A stretch of DNA of 64,000 nucleotides from Paramacrobiotus metropolitanus. Lineage: Eukaryota > Tardigrada > Eutardigrada > Parachela > Macrobiotidae. Made by a program: the position numbers and the translations under genes. The DNA is taken from assembly GCF_019649055.1 (NCBI RefSeq), contig NW_026570249.1:62001-126000 (forward strand), read 5' to 3'. Shown here one piece after another: positions 9,954 through 58,845 of this stretch (position 1 is its first letter; each line of letters begins with the position of its first letter). The notes beneath the pieces were generated by a model that saw nothing but the letters and a program-made list of their open reading frames with translations, was not told the origin of the DNA and made no database searches.

Positions 9954-9960
9954 ATATTAC
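9954..9960. repeat. Target site duplication, left copy
   Basis: ATATTAC directly abuts the left inverted repeat and is repeated exactly at 15661-15667 beyond the right one. P-superfamily elements usually make 7-8 bp duplications. Confidence 0.9.
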
Positions 9961-10054
9961 GTGTACAAACATACTACCAGTGCACCACATCATGATTGCG
10001 CAATAAAATTCTTGACGGTGGAGCTGTTCACGGTAGCTTGTATCAACGCAGCGC
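9961..10054 (+). repeat. Left terminal inverted repeat (94 bp)
   Basis: Begins GTGTACAAACATACTACCAG and ends AACGCAGCGC. It is the exact reverse complement of 15567-15660; similarity stops abruptly inward of 10054. Confidence 0.97.
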
Positions 10055-10739
10055 ACAACATACAGTAGCAGCGTTGTGTGTGCTGCAGTGCTGATAAGTG
10101 ATTAGTCACTAGTGAGAATGGTTACTATATTAGTTTTTCTGTTTCTTATGAATCTTATGATGTATGAGTGTCGTTTTGATTACTTGGGCTAATTACCTCT
10201 TTCTGTACATTTTATTTCTATCGCATTATAACAGTTACAGAGTATTCTACAATTTCTGGAGTGGAAATGTGGGCAGGTACTGATTGATCTTGTGTTCTTA
10301 TTTGCCTGTGAGAAGCAGCGAAAGTGCGAGGAGCCTCTCTTTGACCAACGTAAACTGCACCGTTCACGATCTCACCCGTGCAGCTGCGATCCCGAGTATA
10401 GCCCAGCGCACCCTGCTATCCGATCAGTGGTCATGGAGGCCGTAGAGGTCGGCGATCTGACGAAACTGCTCAGCGAAACGGACACCCTCGGTAAGCAATG
10501 AGATCTACGAACCTTGCTTTAAAGTTGTTCAATTGAATTATCGTTCCCCTTTGAACGGCGGGAATCTCGATGGTCGTTGCAGAAATGATTAAAAAATCCA
10601 AATTAATTAGGAACGCTCCTCCAGAGTCCGGAGTCCAGAGAGTCTATCGCCAGATATAATTATAAAAGAGCCACATATAATTATAGAAGAGCTTTACCGT
10701 TTACGTAGATTCATTTTTGTTTTGTATTTTAGAGTGAAA

Positions 10740-11040
10740 ATGCAGCAAGACCGCTGCGCTGTATGCTTCGAAGTTGCATCCGGTTTGAGTTGCGGAGTGT
10801 TGACGTGCGTACCTTGCAAACTTTTCTTTCTAGCCAACTGGAAAAAACGGTGCGTGGCAGAATAGATGTTTCATATCATTCTCTCGATAAAATACACCGT
10901 TCGTTATCGTTTAATTATTTTAGACTTTAGAATGTAAAAAAAGCGGTCGGTGTGCGGTCGAAAATGTTTCCCGCAAGACGCAGCAAATGTCGTTTGGAAA
11001 ATGTCGTGCAGTCGGCATGGATATTAGAAATCCTCAAAGC
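10740..11040 (+). other. Nuclear-receptor-type C4 zinc-finger DNA-binding domain (degenerate)
   Basis: Finger 1 has the exact C-x2-C-x13-C-x2-C spacing (Cys codons at 10755, 10764, 10806 and 10815) followed by KLFF, matching the receptor P-box pattern CxxCKxFF. The residues between the last two cysteines (VP) are unusual. A GT donor at 10850 and AG acceptor before 10924 lead to finger 2, which shows C-x5-C (10933, 10951) and then KCRAVGM, the conserved end of the receptor domain. The third and fourth cysteine region is out of frame: the +1 frame reads KCRLE at about 10987-11001. The intron phase is also off by one, next to an A6 run at 10842-10847. No receptor ligand-binding domain follows. 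Confidence 0.78.
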
Positions 11041-11099
11041 ATCCAGACCGCGCCCGGTTGGAAGCGGAGCTTTAGAACTTCGCAACCACAGAACTCCTA

Positions 11100-11491
11100 A
11101 TCCTTTCGCAAAGAAAGCTGTCAGAGCCGTTGTTCGAAACGCCCAAAGTGTGGATGACTTGGAAAATTACTCGTTGCGGTGAAGAAGGAAAATTTTGAGG
11201 AAACTGAATGTGTGCCGTTCGCGCATAAAGTTATCAAGGTATCTGTTTATCATTTTAAAAATGAATAGATTAGAACTTTGCGTGGTTGAATACTACTGAA
11301 TTTGTTTTTTCAGTAAATTGTTAATGCTGTTTTACATTTAGGTTAACGAAAACGAAGTCTTGAGTCATGTTCTGACCGCACGGATATTTCGATGGAATCG
11401 CGTAACAGCAAACAACGTCTCTTCTTCACACAAGTGCACGGTGGATACCGGTTCCGTTTGCATTAATCCTTACCATTATCGTAAAGCTGAA
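11100..11491 (+). other. Smad-type MH1 DNA-binding domain inside the transposon gene
   Basis: The first helix (NPFAKKAVRAVVRNAQ, frame 2, from about 11100) resembles Smad4 helix 1. After a one-base frame change at about 11178, the frame reads TECVPF, then an intron (donor GTATCT at about 11240, acceptor before 11342), then LSHVLTARIFRWNRV and VCINPYHYRK. The motifs HV-x4-R-(I/L)-(F/W)-RW and VC-(I/V)-NPYHY are MH1 hallmarks. The four zinc ligands are all present: Cys at 11209, Cys at 11435, Cys at 11459 and His at 11474. The second half of the domain is in one uninterrupted frame with the THAP domain that begins at 11492. No MH2 domain follows. Confidence 0.88.
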
Positions 11492-11715
11492 ATGGCGGAT
11501 CCGGTTGGGAGCGTCTGCGTTGTGACGGGTTGCAGCAATTACACAAAAAAAAAATCCCAGCCCGGGATTTTTCCGTTTGCCGGACAGAACTACAGACGAA
11601 GAGCGCTATTTGCAGTTTTTCTCCTGTGTGCTCGTCAAGATTTGGATAAGACGGGATTCACCAAACACCACCGCATTTGTGGAAAGCATTTTCTTGAGTC
11701 TGATTTTAATACAAT
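11492..11715 (+). other. THAP-type C2CH zinc finger
   Basis: Reads MADPVGSVCVVTGCSNY and onward. The C-x4-C pair is at 11516 and 11531, and the C-x2-H pair (ICGKHF) at 11678 and 11687. FPF lies in between and an acidic E-S-D-F follows. This is the DNA-binding domain normally found at the N-terminus of P-element transposases. The exon ends at GTAAAA (11716), and splicing to 11782 keeps the frame into the transposase region. Confidence 0.88.
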
Positions 11716-11781
11716 GTAAAATTAATTGCAAAATTAAAGAAACAACTTCTATGCCGGCTGCTGACATATATTTTTTTGCAG

Positions 11782-12553
11782 AGGAAAACGGCGGATGCTT
11801 AAGAAAACGGCGATGCCAACACAGTTTATGCCTAAGCCAATCAATATCGCTCCTTTGAGAAGAGATGTTGTCCGTTTGAGCTTTGAAGAAACCGAGGCAA
11901 AGAAAAAGCTGGGATTTTGGAAGTTAATGTCTTCTGATAAATACCAACATGTTCCGGGCAGGCCGGAGTGGGTACGAGTGCGCTGCAATGATTCTGTCAT
12001 CGTTTTCGGACGCGTTCGAATGCTATCGGAGGAAACGACTGAAGCCGTTGCGGACACACTAACTGTTAACAAGAGTCTCAAGGCCCTGCTGAAATTGGGA
12101 GATCATGTTGTTTCCACTGACGTAATGAATTGTTTAGCAGGGTCGGACGATGCAACGAGTACTTACGGTTTACAAAAGATCTGTGATTTAGACGCTGCAG
12201 TCATTGACAACGGTTCACGTGATGTTGAAACGCAGTGCCGAAATGTGATCGCTGGCGCCAAACGAATTATAACACATCTCGAACAAGAACAGGATGCAAC
12301 GTTTGTGGACAGTGATAATGGATTTAACGACGATGAAGATGAACAGTGTCAACGTCAAAAGAAACTCTTATGCGTCTTTCGATTTGTTGCTGAATTAATG
12401 GAGCACTCTATTACCAGATGCCGAAGAGCTATTCGACATTCTGATGCTCTTATACGATTTTGCGGCATGCTTAAAAGTATTTCGACAGCGGCATACAATT
12501 ATTTTCGGAATTTTCTGTTTGGACTTCTTCCCCATATTAACCACCTACAAACT
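11782..12553 (+). other. Transposase linker and helical N-terminal region
   Basis: Longest uninterrupted coding block of the element (about 257 codons). It starts IGKRRMLKK after the THAP exon and ends near LLPHINHLQTA. It contains acidic stretches (DSDNGFNDDEDE) and a helical block leading to AYNYFRNFLFGLLPH, matching the segment that precedes the RNase-H-like core in P/THAP9 transposases. Frame is lost near 12555. Confidence 0.75.
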
Positions 12554-12559
12554 GCGCTT

Positions 12560-14911
12560 CTGTAAATTCCTATTCGGAAGGTATTCAGGATGAAAATTTG
12601 GCCAAATTGAAGAAAATCTCGGAATCCGTTGAAGATCGCCATTTGATGTTGAACTTATCAGCGACCAAACATTCACCGACGAGAAACTGGAGTATCGCGG
12701 AGGAGAAAATAACGGGGTTGCAGCCAGGAGGACGTTGTCGCTGCGAAACATGTTTTGCTCTTGATTATTCAAAGTTTCACTGGAAAAGTTCGTAAAGTCG
12801 TCGCATATTATTTTGTTAAAAATCTGAATGGGGCTGAGATGGCTGAAATTCTGGAAGCGGTCTTGAACTCAATATCAAAAAATACGAAATTCCGGGTTCT
12901 GGTGTGTTCGTCGGATAACGGAGCCGAAAACATGGGATGCCATTCGCGCTTCATAAGCGACAAGACGAAGTTTCCATGGACTTTTCCCCATCCCTGTGCT
13001 GACGGAAGTATTGTATATGTATTATTGGACATCGTGCACTTACTCAAACGAATTTGGATGAACTGTATTCGGGAAAATAATTCGTTCGTTATAGAGGTAA
13101 CTAAATCATTTCACCTGGTGTTCATGTAAATATCTGCCTATTAAAATTAATTAATTTCTTTTTATTTTCAGGTTGGAACTCGTCGGGTAGACTTAACGCT
13201 ACTTTTGCAGATATACGAAATAGAACGCGGTTCCGTCATAAAAAACGCGCCGGATTTGACAGCTAAATTATTTTATCCGAACGGGTTTGAAAAATGGATG
13301 TATCGAATGCGGAAAAAGCATGCATTATGTTTCTTTTTGTACCGATAACTTTCTTATCTCGCAAATAGAATCGTACAGATTCAATAAGGACGTTACTTAC
13401 TTTTGAAAGCATATTTACGTACGTAACTTATTTTCAACCAGAAAACCGAATTAATTCATTTAGTACCGTACCGCACTTACTATTTATTTTAGATTTTTTG
13501 TTCTGACCGGACTTTGGGGACACTGCAGATGCTGCTGCGAGATCAGGAACATCCACTCCTAAAAGAATTAGCCAATGTGCGCAGCGAAACTCGAGACCAG
13601 TGCGTAAAGTGCTTGGATGTACTCGTCTGGTTCATTCAGACTGTGCAAAGAATTGTCATGCCTCTTACTGTACTGAATCCTCGTCAAGCTGCTCGTCTAA
13701 AGCAGCCGCTTTACGAAGCTGTTACAAAGGGCAACATCGATCGCATTTTCTCTGTAAGTTAATTAAGATGAAACAAGGGATGTTCAGTTTTTATTTTTTG
13801 TTTTATTTAGGACATGAAAGTAGCATTGTCTGAGCTCCGTCCATCGACGAACGCCAGGAAATCGTTGCCCCGACCGACGTGGACTGGTCTGCACGTTACC
13901 GTGTACGGCACAGAAGAAGTTGCCAGAAAGCTGTTGCACGCCGGTTTTGAGTTTGTTCTTCCCGGAAAAATGTCTAGTGATCCAATAGAGGTAATCTGCT
14001 AGAACATTATGAAGCTGATGTTCGAATTTATAACTAACATTTTGCAGAGAATATTTTCTGCGTTCAAATATGGTTCTGGAAAGGTAACAGTTGGGAAAGT
14101 GAAAGAAGAAGTTGCAAGGATGGAAACATTACAGCATCTGACGGGAACAACAAACGTCAGCCGCATGGGACGACAAAAGAGAAAAATACCGGTCTGACTT
14201 TTCCACATCCCCATTGAAAAAGAAACGCCATATTGACCGGCCGCTGCGCACGAAAGTTTTCAGCTTTGAAGCAGATATCGGATACCTGCGTGCGTTAGGC
14301 GAGTTGTCTGCACATGTGCCGTCAGATATATTTTCCGGACTCCAAAAAATCGATCCTCGGCTCTGGAGCGCAGCGACAATTGCAGATCTTGTTACAGCAG
14401 ATCCGTATACGATTTTCAGTTGCAGAAAAGGTAATATTTTCAGAGCATTTCAGTGTCTTAGCAAAATTTATTAGCCGGCTACTCATTATGTTTTGTAGAT
14501 GTCGTAGGGACTGGCTTGACTGATGTTGGCGGATATATTGTTTCAAAAATGCAAAAGGGAAAGTTTCCGTGCTCTTCGTGCAAATCTGGTATCGGAAATC
14601 TTCTGGGTGTTTGTTTTCGGAAACCGGCGGGTTAGTTGAAGCACGATCTCGGGTTGAATTTGGTGGCTTAAGTTTACCTTCCCCGCAGTTGGACAAACTG
14701 CTGCATTATGCGCTTGGATTTTTTGAGCGTTTGCAAAAAATCAGCGAATTTTATAAAGGCGACAGCCATTTGGAAAGGGCACTCAAACTCATTCTCCTCG
14801 ATGGATCTCCACGGCTTTCATCCTCTTAGTGATATTTGTGTATGTGAATCGACGAAGTATTTAGAGTATGAATGTCTAAAGCGGTTCTTTAACACTGCGT
14901 TTAAAAAATGA
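12560..14911 (+). other. P-element transposase catalytic region (RNase-H-like plus insertion)
   Basis: Pieces in collinear order: ISDQTFTDEKLEY (about 12647-12690, first candidate catalytic Asp); SFTGKVRKVVAYYF; SSDNGAEN (Asp codon 12914); PHPCADG; DIVHLLKRIW (Asp codon 13028), matching the conserved D-x-x-H-L-L-K motif; LDVLVWFIQTV; KMSSDPIE (Asp 13979, Glu 13988) with a following RIFSAF, matching the region of the C-terminal catalytic Glu; then GGYIVSKM, CSSCKSG and EFGGLSLPSPQLDKL. Several pieces lie in different frames with no splice sites between them. Confidence 0.8.
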
Positions 14912-15566
14912 TGTGATTGAGCGCCGAGCCGATGCTGTGAAGAAAAGTATGGTGCTCGGAAGTCTGTACCGATGTCGACTGATCCTGGTAAATTGAAAAA
15001 TTAAAGCAGCTATAAGCCTATAGCAGTCACTGTTGACACTTCTTCCGTTTATTGCTAGGCTTACTTTTTTTTTAAATTGTTAATTAATTTTAACCAAAAA
15101 ATATTTACTCAGATGTTTTAAGTGATAGATCAAAAGTTTTAATGGTACAGAAAAGCCGGAATATTATTGATTATAATCTCCGAAATACTGTGCTGTCAAA
15201 ACAGAGGATAGCATAGACAGCTACACAAAAATTTGCAGGTAAATGTGGTATGTGCAAACAGGAAAATAAATACATTTTCGCATTTTAAATTTGAAAAAAT
15301 ATTATTTGCTAAAATTCCTGTCAATACGTCTACGCACTTAGCTTCACAGTCATAATTCCATACCTTAAACACACATGGCTGCGCGAGCGCGGGACCGATA
15401 CGTACTTGCAATAATAAATGTTAAGAAACGAGTCAGAAAATTAAACAAAATAATAATAATACAATTATTACGACGTATCTCGGCAAATGTTATAATTTGC
15501 AACTTCACTTCTATCCGTAAAACAAGGCTATCGGTATTGTGGTGTGCTCACTGCGCACTGTACACG

Positions 15567-15660
15567 GCGCTGCGTTGATACAAGCTACCGTGAACAGCTC
15601 CACCGTCAAGAATTTTATTGCGCAATCATGATGTGGTGCACTGGTAGTATGTTTGTACAC
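15567..15660 (-). repeat. Right terminal inverted repeat (94 bp)
   Basis: Exact reverse complement of 9961-10054, ending GTTTGTACAC at 15660. Confidence 0.97.
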
Positions 15661-15667
15661 ATATTAC
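15661..15667. repeat. Target site duplication, right copy
   Basis: ATATTAC, identical to 9954-9960. Confidence 0.9.
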
Positions 15668-52676: not shown

Positions 52677-52781
52677 GTGTGGAATCTCCACACTGTTCTT
52701 CACAAGGTTCTGGCTAGAAAGTTCATAAAACTTTTCACGGCTTCCAAGTCTGTAAAAGCACCGCATCCCAAACCTGCAACA

Positions 52782-53886
52782 ATGAAGTTCGCCGTCGTTC
52801 TTCTTTTCGCCTTCCTCGCGGTTTCCAATGCCGCTTTTACCGGAAACCTTGTCCAACGTAAGTACTGTATTAATATCACATAATGACGCCCTCCTATTTA
52901 AATTAAACGTCTTGTCAACATTGCAGAGGCCCAGCCTCTCTTGAGACAGGCCCTGTTCAAGGTCCGCCTTGCTAGCCGTGCCGACACCACCGGCACCCTG
53001 GTCGAACAGCTCCAGAACCATGCCAACGAAATCATGAACCAGATCTCCACCGCCATCGCCACTGGTCAGGCTGTTGCCGAAAGCGTCGTCGATGACCTCC
53101 AGGAGACCCTTGCCACCCTCCAGTCTATGGGACAGAGCGTCCTCAGCAGCGCCACCGATGTCATCTCCAACTTCCTCGGCGGTCTCTGGGGATCCATCTT
53201 CGGCAAGAGCCGCAGCCTCGCCGGAGTTGTCGACTTCATCCAGAACTTCGACATCAACGCCGTCATTGACCAGATCATCGGTCACGCCCAGGACTTGGTC
53301 AGCCAGCTCGACCTCCAGTCTCTGCTCCAGAACGCCATTGCCGCTCTTTTCGTAAGTCAACCCTTTTTTAATATTGTACCCTGACTACATTTTAATCGTT
53401 TAAAAATAACAACCTGAGCAATAATTTGGTGCATATTGTACACAGCGGACGTATAGTTACTCGTCATAACCTTAAAAATTCTCATCATCAGAACGTGTTT
53501 GAAAGGTCACCCCAGATAATGACAGGCATTCTCTAGCTGATTGCAATTTTTGCTGGTTTGCGCACATGTACACTGTCTAAACATCTTGTTTTTTGTAACA
53601 GGGCCGTGGTTTCTTCGGTGACGTCATTTCCCAGATCCAGGCTGCCGGTGAACAGGCCTGGAGCCAGATCACCAACATCATCAGCCAGGTGACCACCGTC
53701 GCCGGAAGCGCCTTCGAGCAAGTCCAGGCTTTGGCCCAGTCCTTCGTCAGCGAGGCTGCCGTCAACATCCAGAGCATGACCAGCCAGGCTGCTGCTGAAT
53801 TCCTCAACTTCTTGAAGCCCTACGCCCAGCAGTTGGGTGGCCTCTACGAGCAGGTCCAGGCCCAGCTTTCTGGTCTCCTCAACTAA
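52782..53886 (+). CDS. Secreted amphipathic-helix protein (gene A)
   Basis: Exons 52782-52857, 52927-53351 and 53602-53886, with GT-AG ends and matching phases, give 261 residues. The signal peptide is MKFAVVLLFAFLAVSNA. The mature part has no cysteine and is predicted almost entirely helical, with heptad-like patterns rich in Q, A, S and V (VEQLQNHANEIMNQISTAIA, EQVQALAQSFVSEAA). A hydrophobic central stretch reads NFLGGLWGSIFG. I do not recognise the family. The composition resembles exchangeable lipid-binding or surfactant-like secreted proteins, but that is a guess. High GC at third positions compared with the AT-rich surroundings suggests strong expression. AATAAA at 53955. Near-identical inverted copy at 57633-58736. 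Confidence 0.88.
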
Positions 53887-54717
53887 ATTGGGAATTCTCA
53901 CAGTCAATGAATGTTTAACATCAGCGATCAACGGAATGTTACCATCGTTTAGAAAATAAAAGCACTTTCCACCAAACGAAATATGAATTGGTAGAACATC
54001 CACTCAAACTGCTGCTTTTTTGCTTAGTTGCTTAGTTTCTGTTAGTTGTTAGTATGCTTGCACAGCTGTCGTTCGAAAGAAAAAATAAAGCGTCTGACGC
54101 TGAGTTGCAATGTATTGATCGAATTTCGTAATCTATATTCAGAATTCGAAGAACTCTCTGTAACACTTAAATTTTTATTGTAAAATCAATCGAAAATTCA
54201 AAAAAATTCATTCGTTTAACGCAATTGTCATTGTGGTTGGGAATCTCAGAAGTGCAGTACATGCTTACATATTCGATCGAAAGACAACAGAAAACGTCTT
54301 TTCACTTCAGACAGGCCAAATAATTTTATAATGAAGTGGTATGATGTAAATGTTATGTACTAGTATGTGCCACAAAGGGCACCCATAAAATTAATACCAT
54401 AAGTATTGCACCTTTATTGAAAGTACCGTATATCGTAGCTTATGGTTTATTAGAACTTGCAATAATATTAGAACAGCATGATGGTACAATCCATAGCATA
54501 TCGTCAGGATCATTGGATCGTCTACAACTGACTACAAGTATTGTACTCTGTACGCTACGCAAATAACTGCTACGAAGATTGTTGTTGCAGTTTATGTAAG
54601 AATTTAGGCACCTTTTTCCCCAACGCAGAAAAATGTGGCTAACATTTATTTGAGCAGTTTCTGATATCGCAATCCGTAATGACTGGTTAACTGACCGTCA
54701 GCAATTTGGTGTTACTT
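53887..54717. other. Convergent intergenic between A and B
   Basis: 3' flank of gene A with AATAAA at 53955-53960, then AT-rich sequence to the stop codon of the minus-strand gene B. Confidence 0.5.
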
Positions 54718-56296: not shown

Positions 56297-57632
56297 CGTA
56301 TATGCGCTAGATTTAAGTGCACGAGTAAAGCAATTAAAAAATAATAAGATGTAAATTAGTTTTTGAAAGAGCGCAAAATCGTATAGGTACACAGGCATTC
56401 GATTATATGCAGCTGCAGTAGGTGCACCGTGAGCTGTATACTACGTCATCTATGAATTGCAAGCAGATCGACATGGGAAATAACTTTACTTTTACTGGAG
56501 TAAGCAAATTCATGAATCATAAAAGAAACAATCCGCAATTTGAGTAAAGGTTCTGCTAAAAAAGATCTGGTGGCCATATTACATCTTTTGCCCTTTGTGA
56601 CGAAAAAAGTGGTGTTATTTGAACTTCCGGTTCAGTTGAAAGCCAGTTCTAATCGAAACGAGGAATGTCGATTACTCATTACGCATACGCTGTTGCTATT
56701 TTCGCACAAACGGTCTATCCAGTCAAATTGTTACAATCAGCAACATTTATGTCAATCATATTTGCCAAGCCAAAGTACTCATACTTGTTGGTGCCCACAA
56801 TACCAAGATAGCGGATCACACAATGCAGTTGGCTAATATCCAATAAAAAACCTTAATTTTGTGAAGACTTGCATTATAGGTTTCTTTTATATTAAGTAAA
56901 TAATTTGAAAAACTGGCGAATGTCCACTTCAGCACAGCGGCAGCGACACTAAACCAAACGGATACGAATTAAACGATCCAATAAAGTATTAATAAATAAG
57001 CACTTCTCTAGCCTACAGTGCCAGTACTGTTGTATAAAATGTAGGCGACAGTCTCGGGCAAATGATGACGAAAATCATATTCACTTATTGTTGAATGTGT
57101 TTGAAAAAGTATTATTGTATTGCTTGTAGCGTTTTAAAATATCAGACGCACTGAGTTACAACAGGTCGCACAATATTATACATAGCATAATATTGTACAC
57201 TGTCCAGTGTCCACGAAGTACCTTGTGAACGCAGAGGTGCCTATCTATAAATTAGATTAAGAACCACGATAAAACAGCAAAATGCATATCTATAAAGTAT
57301 ATTAAGAACCACGTTAAAATTATAAAAGGAGTACTTTTTTAAAGTAATGCATCTCGGTGCATTAAAGTAATGCATCTCGTTGAGCTCGACACATTTTAGT
57401 TTTAATTACCAACGTGACATCTGAACTTGTCCAATCCATCTTTATTTTCTAACATCTACATTTGTGCAAAGCAACCCATATATGCAAACAAAATACAAAA
57501 GCCAAAAGCAGAAAAAGCAAAAAGCAACGATTCAACGCTATTTAATTTTATAATCCATTTACGTTCGCAAACTTTTGATTAATCTCTGGGCTTTAAGATG
57601 TTATTGGTTCCTAGACTCTGAGAATTCCCAGT
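56297..57632. other. Intergenic between B and A'
   Basis: No gene. It contains a tandem duplication at about 57245-57325 (units with TCTATAAA..AGATTAAGAACCACG) and repeated TTAAAGTAATGCATCTCG units near 57340-57380. TTTATT at 57441-57446 is the likely poly(A) signal of A' on the minus strand. Confidence 0.5.
57245..57380. repeat. Two short tandem duplications
   Basis: TCTATAAA...TTAAGAACCACG...AAAA occurs twice about 50 bases apart. AAAGTAATGCATCTCG occurs twice about 25 bases apart directly after. Confidence 0.6.
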
Positions 57633-58736
57633 TTAGTTGAGGAGACCGGCGAGCTGGGCCTGGACCTGCTCGTAGAGGCCACCCAACTGCTGGGCGTATG
57701 GCTTCAAGAAGTTGAGAAAATTGGCAGCAGCCTGGCTGGTCATGCTCTGGATGTTGACGGCAGCCTCGCTGACGAAGGACTGGGCCAAAGCTTGGACCTG
57801 CTCGAAGGCGCTTCCGGCGACGGTGGTCACCTGGCTGATGATGTTGTTGATCTGGCTCCAGGCCTGTTGGCCGGCAGCCTGGACCTGGGCAATGACGTCA
57901 CCGAAGAAACCACGGCCCTGTTTTAAGAAAACAACTTATTTAAACGGTGTCAGCGTAATCACAAAAATCGCAGTCAGCTAGAGAAATGCCTGTCATTGGC
58001 ATCGGGTGACCTTTCCCACACTTTTTAATGATGAGAACCTTAACAGATTGTACCAGTACTTATTTAAATTTCCATCTCTGAATGCACAGTGTTGGCCAAA
58101 TAAGTACTCAGGGGGATGTTCTAAACTGTTTTAGTGTAGTCAGGTACAATATTAAAAAAGGGTTGACTTACGAAAAGAGCGGCAATGGCGTTCTGGAGCA
58201 GAGACTGGAGGTCGAGCTGGCTGACCAAGTCCTGGGCGTGACCGATGATCTGGTCAATGACGGCGTTAATGTCGAAGTTCTGGATGAAGTCGACAACTCC
58301 GCCGAGGCTGCGGCTCTTGCCGAAGATGGATCCCCAGAGACCGCCGAGGAAGTTGGAGATGACATCAGTGGCGCTGCTGAGGACGCTCTGTCCCATAGAC
58401 TGGAGGGTGGCAAGGGTCTCCTGGAGGTCATCGACGACGCTTTCGGCAACAGCCTGACCAGTGGCGATGGCGGTGGAGATCTGGTTCATGATTTCGTTGG
58501 CATGGTTCTGGAGCTGTTCGACCAGGGTGCCGGTGGTGTCGGCACGGCTAGCAAGGCGGACCTTGAACAGGGCCTGTCTCAAGAGAGGCTGGGCCTCTGC
58601 AATGTTGACAAGACGTTTAATTTAAATAGGAGGGCGTCATTATTTGATACTAATACTTACGTTGGACAAGGTTTCCGGTAAAAGCGGCATTGGAAACCGC
58701 GAGGAAGGCGAAGAGAACTACGACGGCGAACTTCAT
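57633..58736 (-). CDS. Secreted amphipathic-helix protein (gene A', inverted copy of A)
   Basis: Exons on the minus strand 58661-58736, 58172-58596 and 57633-57917 have exactly the same lengths (76, 425 and 285) as gene A. The predicted 261-residue proteins differ at only a few positions (for example AEFLNF in A versus ANFLNF here, and SLAGVV versus SLGGVV). Intron 2 starts are also nearly identical (GTAAGTCAACCC and onward). The reading frame is intact with signal peptide and splice sites preserved, so this is likely a functional recent duplicate. Function is unknown, as for gene A. Confidence 0.88.
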
Positions 58737-58845
58737 TGTTGCGGATTCGGTATGCAGAGCTTTCGTAAACTTGGAAGCCGTTAAAAGTTTTTAGCTTATT
58801 TTAGCCAGAACCTTAACTGTAGCATTCAGGGAATTTTTGCATGGG

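Follow-up and report, generated by a model that had tools for sequence, protein, structure and literature searches.

A P-superfamily transposon family of the tardigrade Paramacrobiotus metropolitanus carrying nuclear receptor and Smad-type DNA-binding domains

A 64,000-nucleotide stretch of the genome of the tardigrade Paramacrobiotus metropolitanus (NCBI RefSeq assembly GCF_019649055.1, contig NW_026570249.1, positions 62,001 to 126,000 of the forward strand; hereafter the window) contains a 5,700-bp element at 9961-15660 that combines a P-type transposase with DNA-binding domains of two families of host transcription factors (Table 1). Two arms matching in inverted orientation at 98% identity (9955-10054 and 15567-15666) bound the element, the inner 94 bp of each being the terminal inverted repeat (TIR) proper. 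On the plus strand, fingers 1 and 2 of a nuclear receptor (NR) are followed by an MH1 domain in two halves, then by a THAP finger and last by the P-type transposase. An initial annotation, made from the letters of the window, had placed these domains on a single strand between one pair of terminal repeats, which the 94-bp TIRs and a 7-bp target-site duplication (TSD) confirm. Most of its coordinates stand as well, apart from the gene end, set at 14911 and now extended (predicted exons from about 10433 to about 15015), and the end of the exon that carries the first MH1 half, which moves from 11240 to 11238, with the donor GT at 11239.

Table 1. Features of the NR-MH1-THAP-transposase element in the window (positions of the window; exons are predicted)
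Feature	Position	Strand	Basis or remark
Left TSD, ATATTAC	9954..9960	.	Perfect 7-bp TSD
Left TIR, 94 bp, starts GTGTACAAAC	9961..10054	+	Inverted-repeat comparison
Exon 1, predicted start (MEAVEVGDLTKLLSETDTL), phase-1 donor GTAAGC	10433..10490	+	Same phase as exon 1 of copy L004
Exon 2, NR (zf-C4) finger 1	10735..10849	+	Pfam E 1.5e-5
Exon 3, NR finger 2, linker and first MH1 half; indels break the frame here	10924..11238	+	
Exon 4, second MH1 half (NPYHY) with THAP finger, one open reading frame	11342..11715	+	Pfam MH1 8.4e-8, THAP 1.8e-5
Exon 5, transposase, helix-turn-helix-like region and N-terminal part of RNase H	11782..13096	+	Pfam; homologous to L004 exon 5
Exon 6, transposase	13172..13317	+	Modelled on L004
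Exon 7, transposase	13493..13753	+	Modelled on L004
Exon 8, transposase, ends at SDPIE motif, presumed third catalytic acid	13811..13990	+	Modelled on L004
Exon 9, transposase	14048..14430	+	Modelled on L004
Exon 10, transposase C-terminus	14499..15015	+	Modelled on L004
Right TIR, 94 bp	15567..15660	-	
Right TSD, ATATTAC	15661..15667	.	Perfect 7-bp TSD

Pfam searches of the window frames, which the initial annotation had proposed as a check, returned zf-C4, MH1, THAP and RNase H matches. Finger 1 scores above the cut-off and finger 2, in a frame disturbed by small indels, below it (6.9e-3). The second half of MH1 and the THAP finger share a single open reading frame (ORF; 11342-11719), while the broken first half was recognised via its match to other copies; the NPYHY motif and four zinc ligands first described for this MH1 are indeed visible by eye. 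In the transposase, TNP-like_RNaseH_N matches at 4e-9 and Tnp_P_element falls below the cut-off (4.6e-3). The frame of exon 5 is broken, and the exon 6 donor seen in copies L001 and L004 is not intact; exon 3 is open in L001, L003, L004, L005 and L007.

One continuous protein can be read from L004, on contig C99 of the searched genome (169.8 Mb, 533 contigs), the P. metropolitanus assembly from which alone all copies described here were drawn. Its predicted gene model joins ten GT-AG exons into 1,223 amino acids (aa) with no stop, and the protein matches MH1 (5.1e-12), THAP (1.1e-10), zf-C4 (1.5e-8) and TNP-like_RNaseH_N (3.8e-8) above the Pfam cut-offs. The zf-C4 match spans positions 2-69 of 70, a two-finger NR DNA-binding domain (DBD), and the MH1 match positions 3-100 of 103; THAP is preceded by both and so is not the first domain. 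One exon encodes NR finger 2 together with the first MH1 half, and the exon after it the rest of MH1 together with THAP. Each of these two joints lies within a single ORF in L001, L003, L004 and L005 (the former also in L007), so that the fusion of NR finger 2 to MH1 and of MH1 to THAP needs no assumption about splicing. The first four intron phases (1, 0, 0, 2) agree, by reading, between L004 and the gene of L001 and the window, where a one-base gap shifts the phase of the second intron. THAP and transposase are joined across one predicted intron in the NR-bearing copies and within a single ORF in two elements that lack NR, L009 and L010. The RNase H core is above the cut-off in the window, L004, L009 and L010. 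Tnp_P_element gave no Pfam match in L004 and stays below the cut-off in the window, L009 and L010; the GTP-binding insertion model, matched in the ordinary P-type locus L020, found none in L004. The aspartates of the DQTF and ADNGAEN motifs are invariant among three lineages. Chance domain matches were considered as a source of this architecture and ruled out by the above-cut-off E-values in L004 and the recurring order in other copies.

Both additional modules are recognisable and altered. All eight zf-C4 cysteines can be read by eye in L001-L004, and the best PDB matches of the NR part are glucocorticoid-receptor DBDs. Compared with nuclear receptors, the element retains the two C4 fingers with an altered P-box (CDSCRK, CVPCKL, by eye), and no ligand-binding domain family is among the Pfam matches of the L004 protein. 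Compared with Smad4, its MH1 shares the C-C-C-H zinc ligands (by eye) and the intron position and phase of the host Smad4-like gene, but is three residues shorter from the first Cys to HV, has changed hairpin residues (by eye) and is accompanied by no MH2 match (Pfam, L004 protein). Judged by this domain content, the NR part is an NR-derived DBD and not a receptor, and the MH1 part a Smad-derived domain and not a Smad.

The NR module occurs in seven copies, the window element, L001-L005 and L007, each of which also has MH1, whole or in part. L001 (C20) is a near-identical full copy at 99%; the others lie on C33 (L002), C1 (L003), C99 (L004), C89 (L005) and C2 (L007). L002, L005 and L007 are internally deleted, which leaves L002 without the second MH1 half and L007 with that half truncated; L006 is transposase only, and L008, included because of a 5' match, showed no coding match. 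Of the other zf-C4 matches (85 in total, best candidates), 25 loci were examined; receptor-like finger motifs were found in 24 and none in L076. No relatives in viral contigs were confirmed. Perfect 7-bp TSDs flank four of the six NR copies with TIRs (window, L004, L005, L007); the TSD of L002 matches at 6/7 and that of L001 is imperfect. The search for other copies suggested in the initial annotation thus yielded six more with NR, and the NR and MH1 exons are neither absent from all other copies nor a separate nested gene. A nested or neighbouring host gene as their source is excluded by the copies that share them elsewhere. Since NR, MH1 and transposase lie in different, broken frames in the window, they might have been taken for exons of a host gene that a P element hit or landed beside, a fusion accident of one locus. 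That NR and MH1 recur in seven copies in separate places, a number of them framed by TIRs and by TSDs of their own, together with conserved exon joins and selection across copies, makes such an accident extremely improbable.

The exon joins persist between copies that are 49% identical in NR (L004 against L003) and 67-68% identical in MH1-THAP (L004 against L001 and L003). For NR, linker, MH1 and THAP, non-synonymous divergence (dN) is lower than synonymous divergence (dS) in every pair, and the pooled ratio of non-synonymous to synonymous differences per site (pN/pS) is 0.28-0.45 in six pairs; comparisons with L002 span just 90 codons, and dS is mostly saturated in those with L004. Between L001 and L003, dN and dS are 0.117/0.499 for NR1, 0.170/0.289 for NR2, 0.161/0.836 for MH1a (its first half), 0.094/0.600 for MH1b and 0.106/0.567 for THAP. 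These substitution ratios show the NR and MH1 modules to be under purifying selection. A dead relic with NR and MH1 as functionless passengers would fit the many small indels of the window copy, the internal deletions of L002, L005 and L007 and the stop near the gene end of L010. It is nonetheless improbable, given dN below dS in each module, the open gene of L004 and near-identical copies with perfect TSDs. The window copy differs from its sister L001 by 33 gaps (24 small deletions in the window, 9 the other way) and 12 mismatches; as the gaps are mostly single bases in short runs and the mismatches few, we suspect residual read errors of the assembly rather than decay.

A family of miniature inverted-repeat transposable elements (MITEs), roughly 550-690 bp long, which have the ends GTGTACAGA and are flanked by 7-bp duplications, was observed on C10, C49, C77, C2, C48, C46, C30, C4, C6, C116 and other contigs. 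At their best-scoring ends (546-686 bp), 12 of 14 MITE-like elements examined have perfect 7-bp TSDs. The MITEs share their ends with the NR-MH1-THAP elements, whose transposase family apparently mobilises them.

MH1 and THAP are also joined outside the NR-bearing copies, in five further loci at 38-42% identity (L009, L010, L011, L012, L013), near which no zf-C4 match lies among the matches listed. L009 and L010 carry a P transposase, L011 and L012 are fragments, and L013 reads as a deleted form of an L009-like element; perfect 7-bp TSDs flank L013 (CTTGGAC) and L009 (AGTCAAC). The 700-aa ORF of L010, which runs through an in-frame intron inside MH1 (by reading), matches MH1 (1.9e-6), THAP (1.3e-13) and RNase H (1.2e-8), with Tnp_P_element just below the cut-off (4.3e-4), and lies inside an inverted repeat of at least about 100 bp. 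In L019 and L020, P-type loci that lack MH1, THAP and transposase follow each other in the usual order; four further loci of the P-type search (L021-L024) had no match to the L004 queries, and no MH1 match adjoins any remaining locus of that search. As far as these loci tell, MH1-THAP is common to NR-less elements and a set of PRDM-like genes, and NR is confined to one subfamily.

These PRDM-like genes are three gene-like loci on the minus strand, L014+L077 (C12:1823500-1834000), L015+L078 (C12:1811000-1818500) and L016+L079 (C166:65000-72500), in which MH1, THAP, PR domain and C2H2 fingers follow one another on one strand (exons read separately). MH1 is above the cut-off in L015 and L016 and scores 22.8 bits against 25 in L014. 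THAP has a Pfam match in L014 and L015; in L016 it is seen by eye only, its ORF giving no Pfam THAP match. PRDM2_PR is found in all three (1.3e-18, 7.1e-18 and 2.2e-18), and C2H2 fingers are above the cut-off in L014/L077 and L079 and below it in the single stretch scanned of L078. The loci end in STLPP or TTLPP. No inverted repeat of at least 30 nt at 80% was found around them (7.5-10.5 kb) by a scan that detected three element controls, and they look like host transcription factors. Host genes are well known to capture the DNA-binding domains of transposases. The MH1-THAP-PR-C2H2 genes resemble this transposon-to-gene kind of host-transposase fusion transcription factors; unlike those, the NR/MH1 element holds host DNA-binding modules inside a transposon. 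About 1.4 kb from one of these MH1-THAP-PR genes and opposite to it in strand, a 472-aa open frame holds a complete Smad-like MH1 that no intron interrupts (L014:4412-5827, C12:1831911-1833326).

The MH1 intron points to the source of this module. It is in phase 0, 8 residues before HV (or H), in L004, L010, L011, L016 and the host gene L042; that of L015 agrees on the acceptor side, and that of L009 is one residue off (one more). L042 resembles Smad4 (E 1.1e-51; Smads 1, 3, 5 and 9 match at 5e-32 or weaker), and the host Smad-like genes L043 and L045 have their MH1 intron elsewhere. Because its intron position is shared with the Smad4-like gene, the likeliest source of MH1 is genomic DNA from a Smad4-type gene, captured perhaps a single time. 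The MH1 tree, rooted at its midpoint, separates all eight MH1-THAP rows from seven host Smad rows (96/99); it was built without host L049, L050 and L051, PRDM-like L015, elements L002, L005, L007, L012 and L013 and the window, all broken, cut or near copies, and both PRDM rows have long branches.

It is possible, if doubtful, that MH1-THAP was built in the host MH1-THAP-PR-C2H2 genes and then taken up by P elements. The three MH1-PR-C2H2 genes, two of them with a Pfam THAP match, lie within no inverted repeats in the 7.5-10.5 kb examined, and L015 and L016 retain more Smad4-like residues before HV (VAGRK, ISGKK), which would fit such a course. THAP is, however, the standard head of P transposases, as in L019 and L020; the MH1 tree, with elements and PRDM genes on one side, gives no direction, and the THAP tree (without L016, L005 and the window) leaves the element-PRDM link unresolved (p-AU 0.235).

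For the NR module, 4 element and 18 host rows give a tree with one element clade (95/96) and no donor resolved; L005, L007 and the window (near copies or broken) were left out, as were host L056, L060, L070, L071, L074, L075 and L076, whose DBD was not read whole (L076 without the motif). An HR96-like donor, suggested by the intron and FFR-N motif of L059, was rejected, the intron being one residue off and the support too weak. The claim in the initial annotation that two host modules had been captured therefore holds for MH1, by its Smad4-type intron position, and for NR stops short of a resolved donor.

There is little doubt that the NR-MH1-THAP-transposase architecture is real and belongs to a transposon. 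The element belongs to the known P superfamily, in which its domain architecture is new: the initial annotation knew of no such element, and no description of NR or MH1 joined to THAP or a P transposase was found in a literature search, among the matches listed. The element is very probably a cut-and-paste transposon with a single protein of about 1,200 aa, in which an NR DBD, a Smad4-type MH1 and THAP precede the transposase core and the extra heads would serve the transposase. We propose that an intron-containing piece of a Smad4-type gene was acquired by, or joined to, a THAP-bearing P element, and that one subfamily then also gained the NR DBD. NR and MH1 would act as extra DNA-binding heads, most likely recognising the long (94-143 bp) TIRs at several points, and the altered hairpin and P-box may change the sequence that is recognised. 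L002, L005, L007 and L013 keep the DNA-binding head and miss much of the core; such shortened copies could act as repressors, as KP does for Drosophila P.

According to the excerpted sections of PMC7776569 and PMC10983969, Drosophila P and zebrafish THAP9 or Pdre2 share with this family the THAP finger, a P-type RNase H transposase, TIRs and internally deleted derivatives. The P transposase grips the transposon end by its THAP finger, and internally deleted P elements encode repressors such as KP (excerpts of PMC7776569). They differ in that THAP is the only added N-terminal head of Drosophila P and Pdre2, with no NR or MH1 in those sections, and in their 8-bp TSDs and TIRs of 31 bp (P) and 13 bp (Pdre2) (PMC7776569, PMC10983969). 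Galileo, as excerpted in PMC4168063, has 7-bp TSDs (consensus GTANTAC) and THAP, as does the window family, and the excerpts of PMC4168063 and PMC3688188 mention no NR or MH1 domain.

Several observations weigh against the interpretation proposed here. Galileo has long TIRs with THAP alone, so that long ends need no extra heads (PMC3688188, in part), and Smad sites (GTCT/AGAC) and NR half-sites were not enriched in the TIRs (ten ends against simple shuffles). The window copy is not open throughout, and no TIRs were found in the stretch of L003 examined. The splicing of the exons is predicted from sequence. Taken alone, the first half of MH1 has an E-value of 0.082 in L004 and no match in Pfam scans of L001 and L003, and counts once joined to the second half. 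The catalytic acids (DQTF, ADNGAEN and SDPIE in L004) are assigned by motif, a profile search of the transposase gave no match to the P transposase structure, and the predicted structure of its core has a mean pLDDT of 36.9. Of all modules, NR2 is under the weakest constraint (dN/dS about 0.6 between L001 and L003), and the MH1 intron of L014 lies closer to H, at four residues.

Binding of the transposon ends by NR and MH1 is, on this sequence evidence, about evenly balanced between true and false. Rather than binding ends, the two heads might steer insertion by tethering to host regulatory DNA, or control transcription on signalling. NR and Smad MH1 families do bind host regulatory DNA, and the missing enrichment of classic sites in the TIRs would be expected. 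The P-box of NR and the MH1 hairpin of Smad, however, read those classic host sites, and both are changed in the element, so that the old host sites are unlikely targets; we regard steering or control as rather unlikely. More tentatively than the end-binding role, P elements and host transcription-factor genes of this animal lineage may trade DNA-binding modules both ways: a Smad4 MH1 joins a THAP transposase, MH1-THAP passes to or from PR/zinc-finger genes, and an NR DBD is added. If so, a transposase with several DNA-binding heads could be re-aimed by module exchange. The family is a transposon that holds, under selection, DNA-binding domains from two of the best-known animal transcription-factor families and has spread with them; it offers a natural, testable example of how a transposase can be fitted with DNA-binding heads of foreign origin. 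Together with the MH1-THAP-PR-C2H2 genes it is a system for tracing and dating module traffic between transposons and transcription factors.

Elsewhere in the window, 52704-53922 and 57597-58814 form an inverted duplication that is 99% identical over 514 nt and 92% over 334 nt, and weaker inverted pairs, including two similar open frames, extend to 62749.

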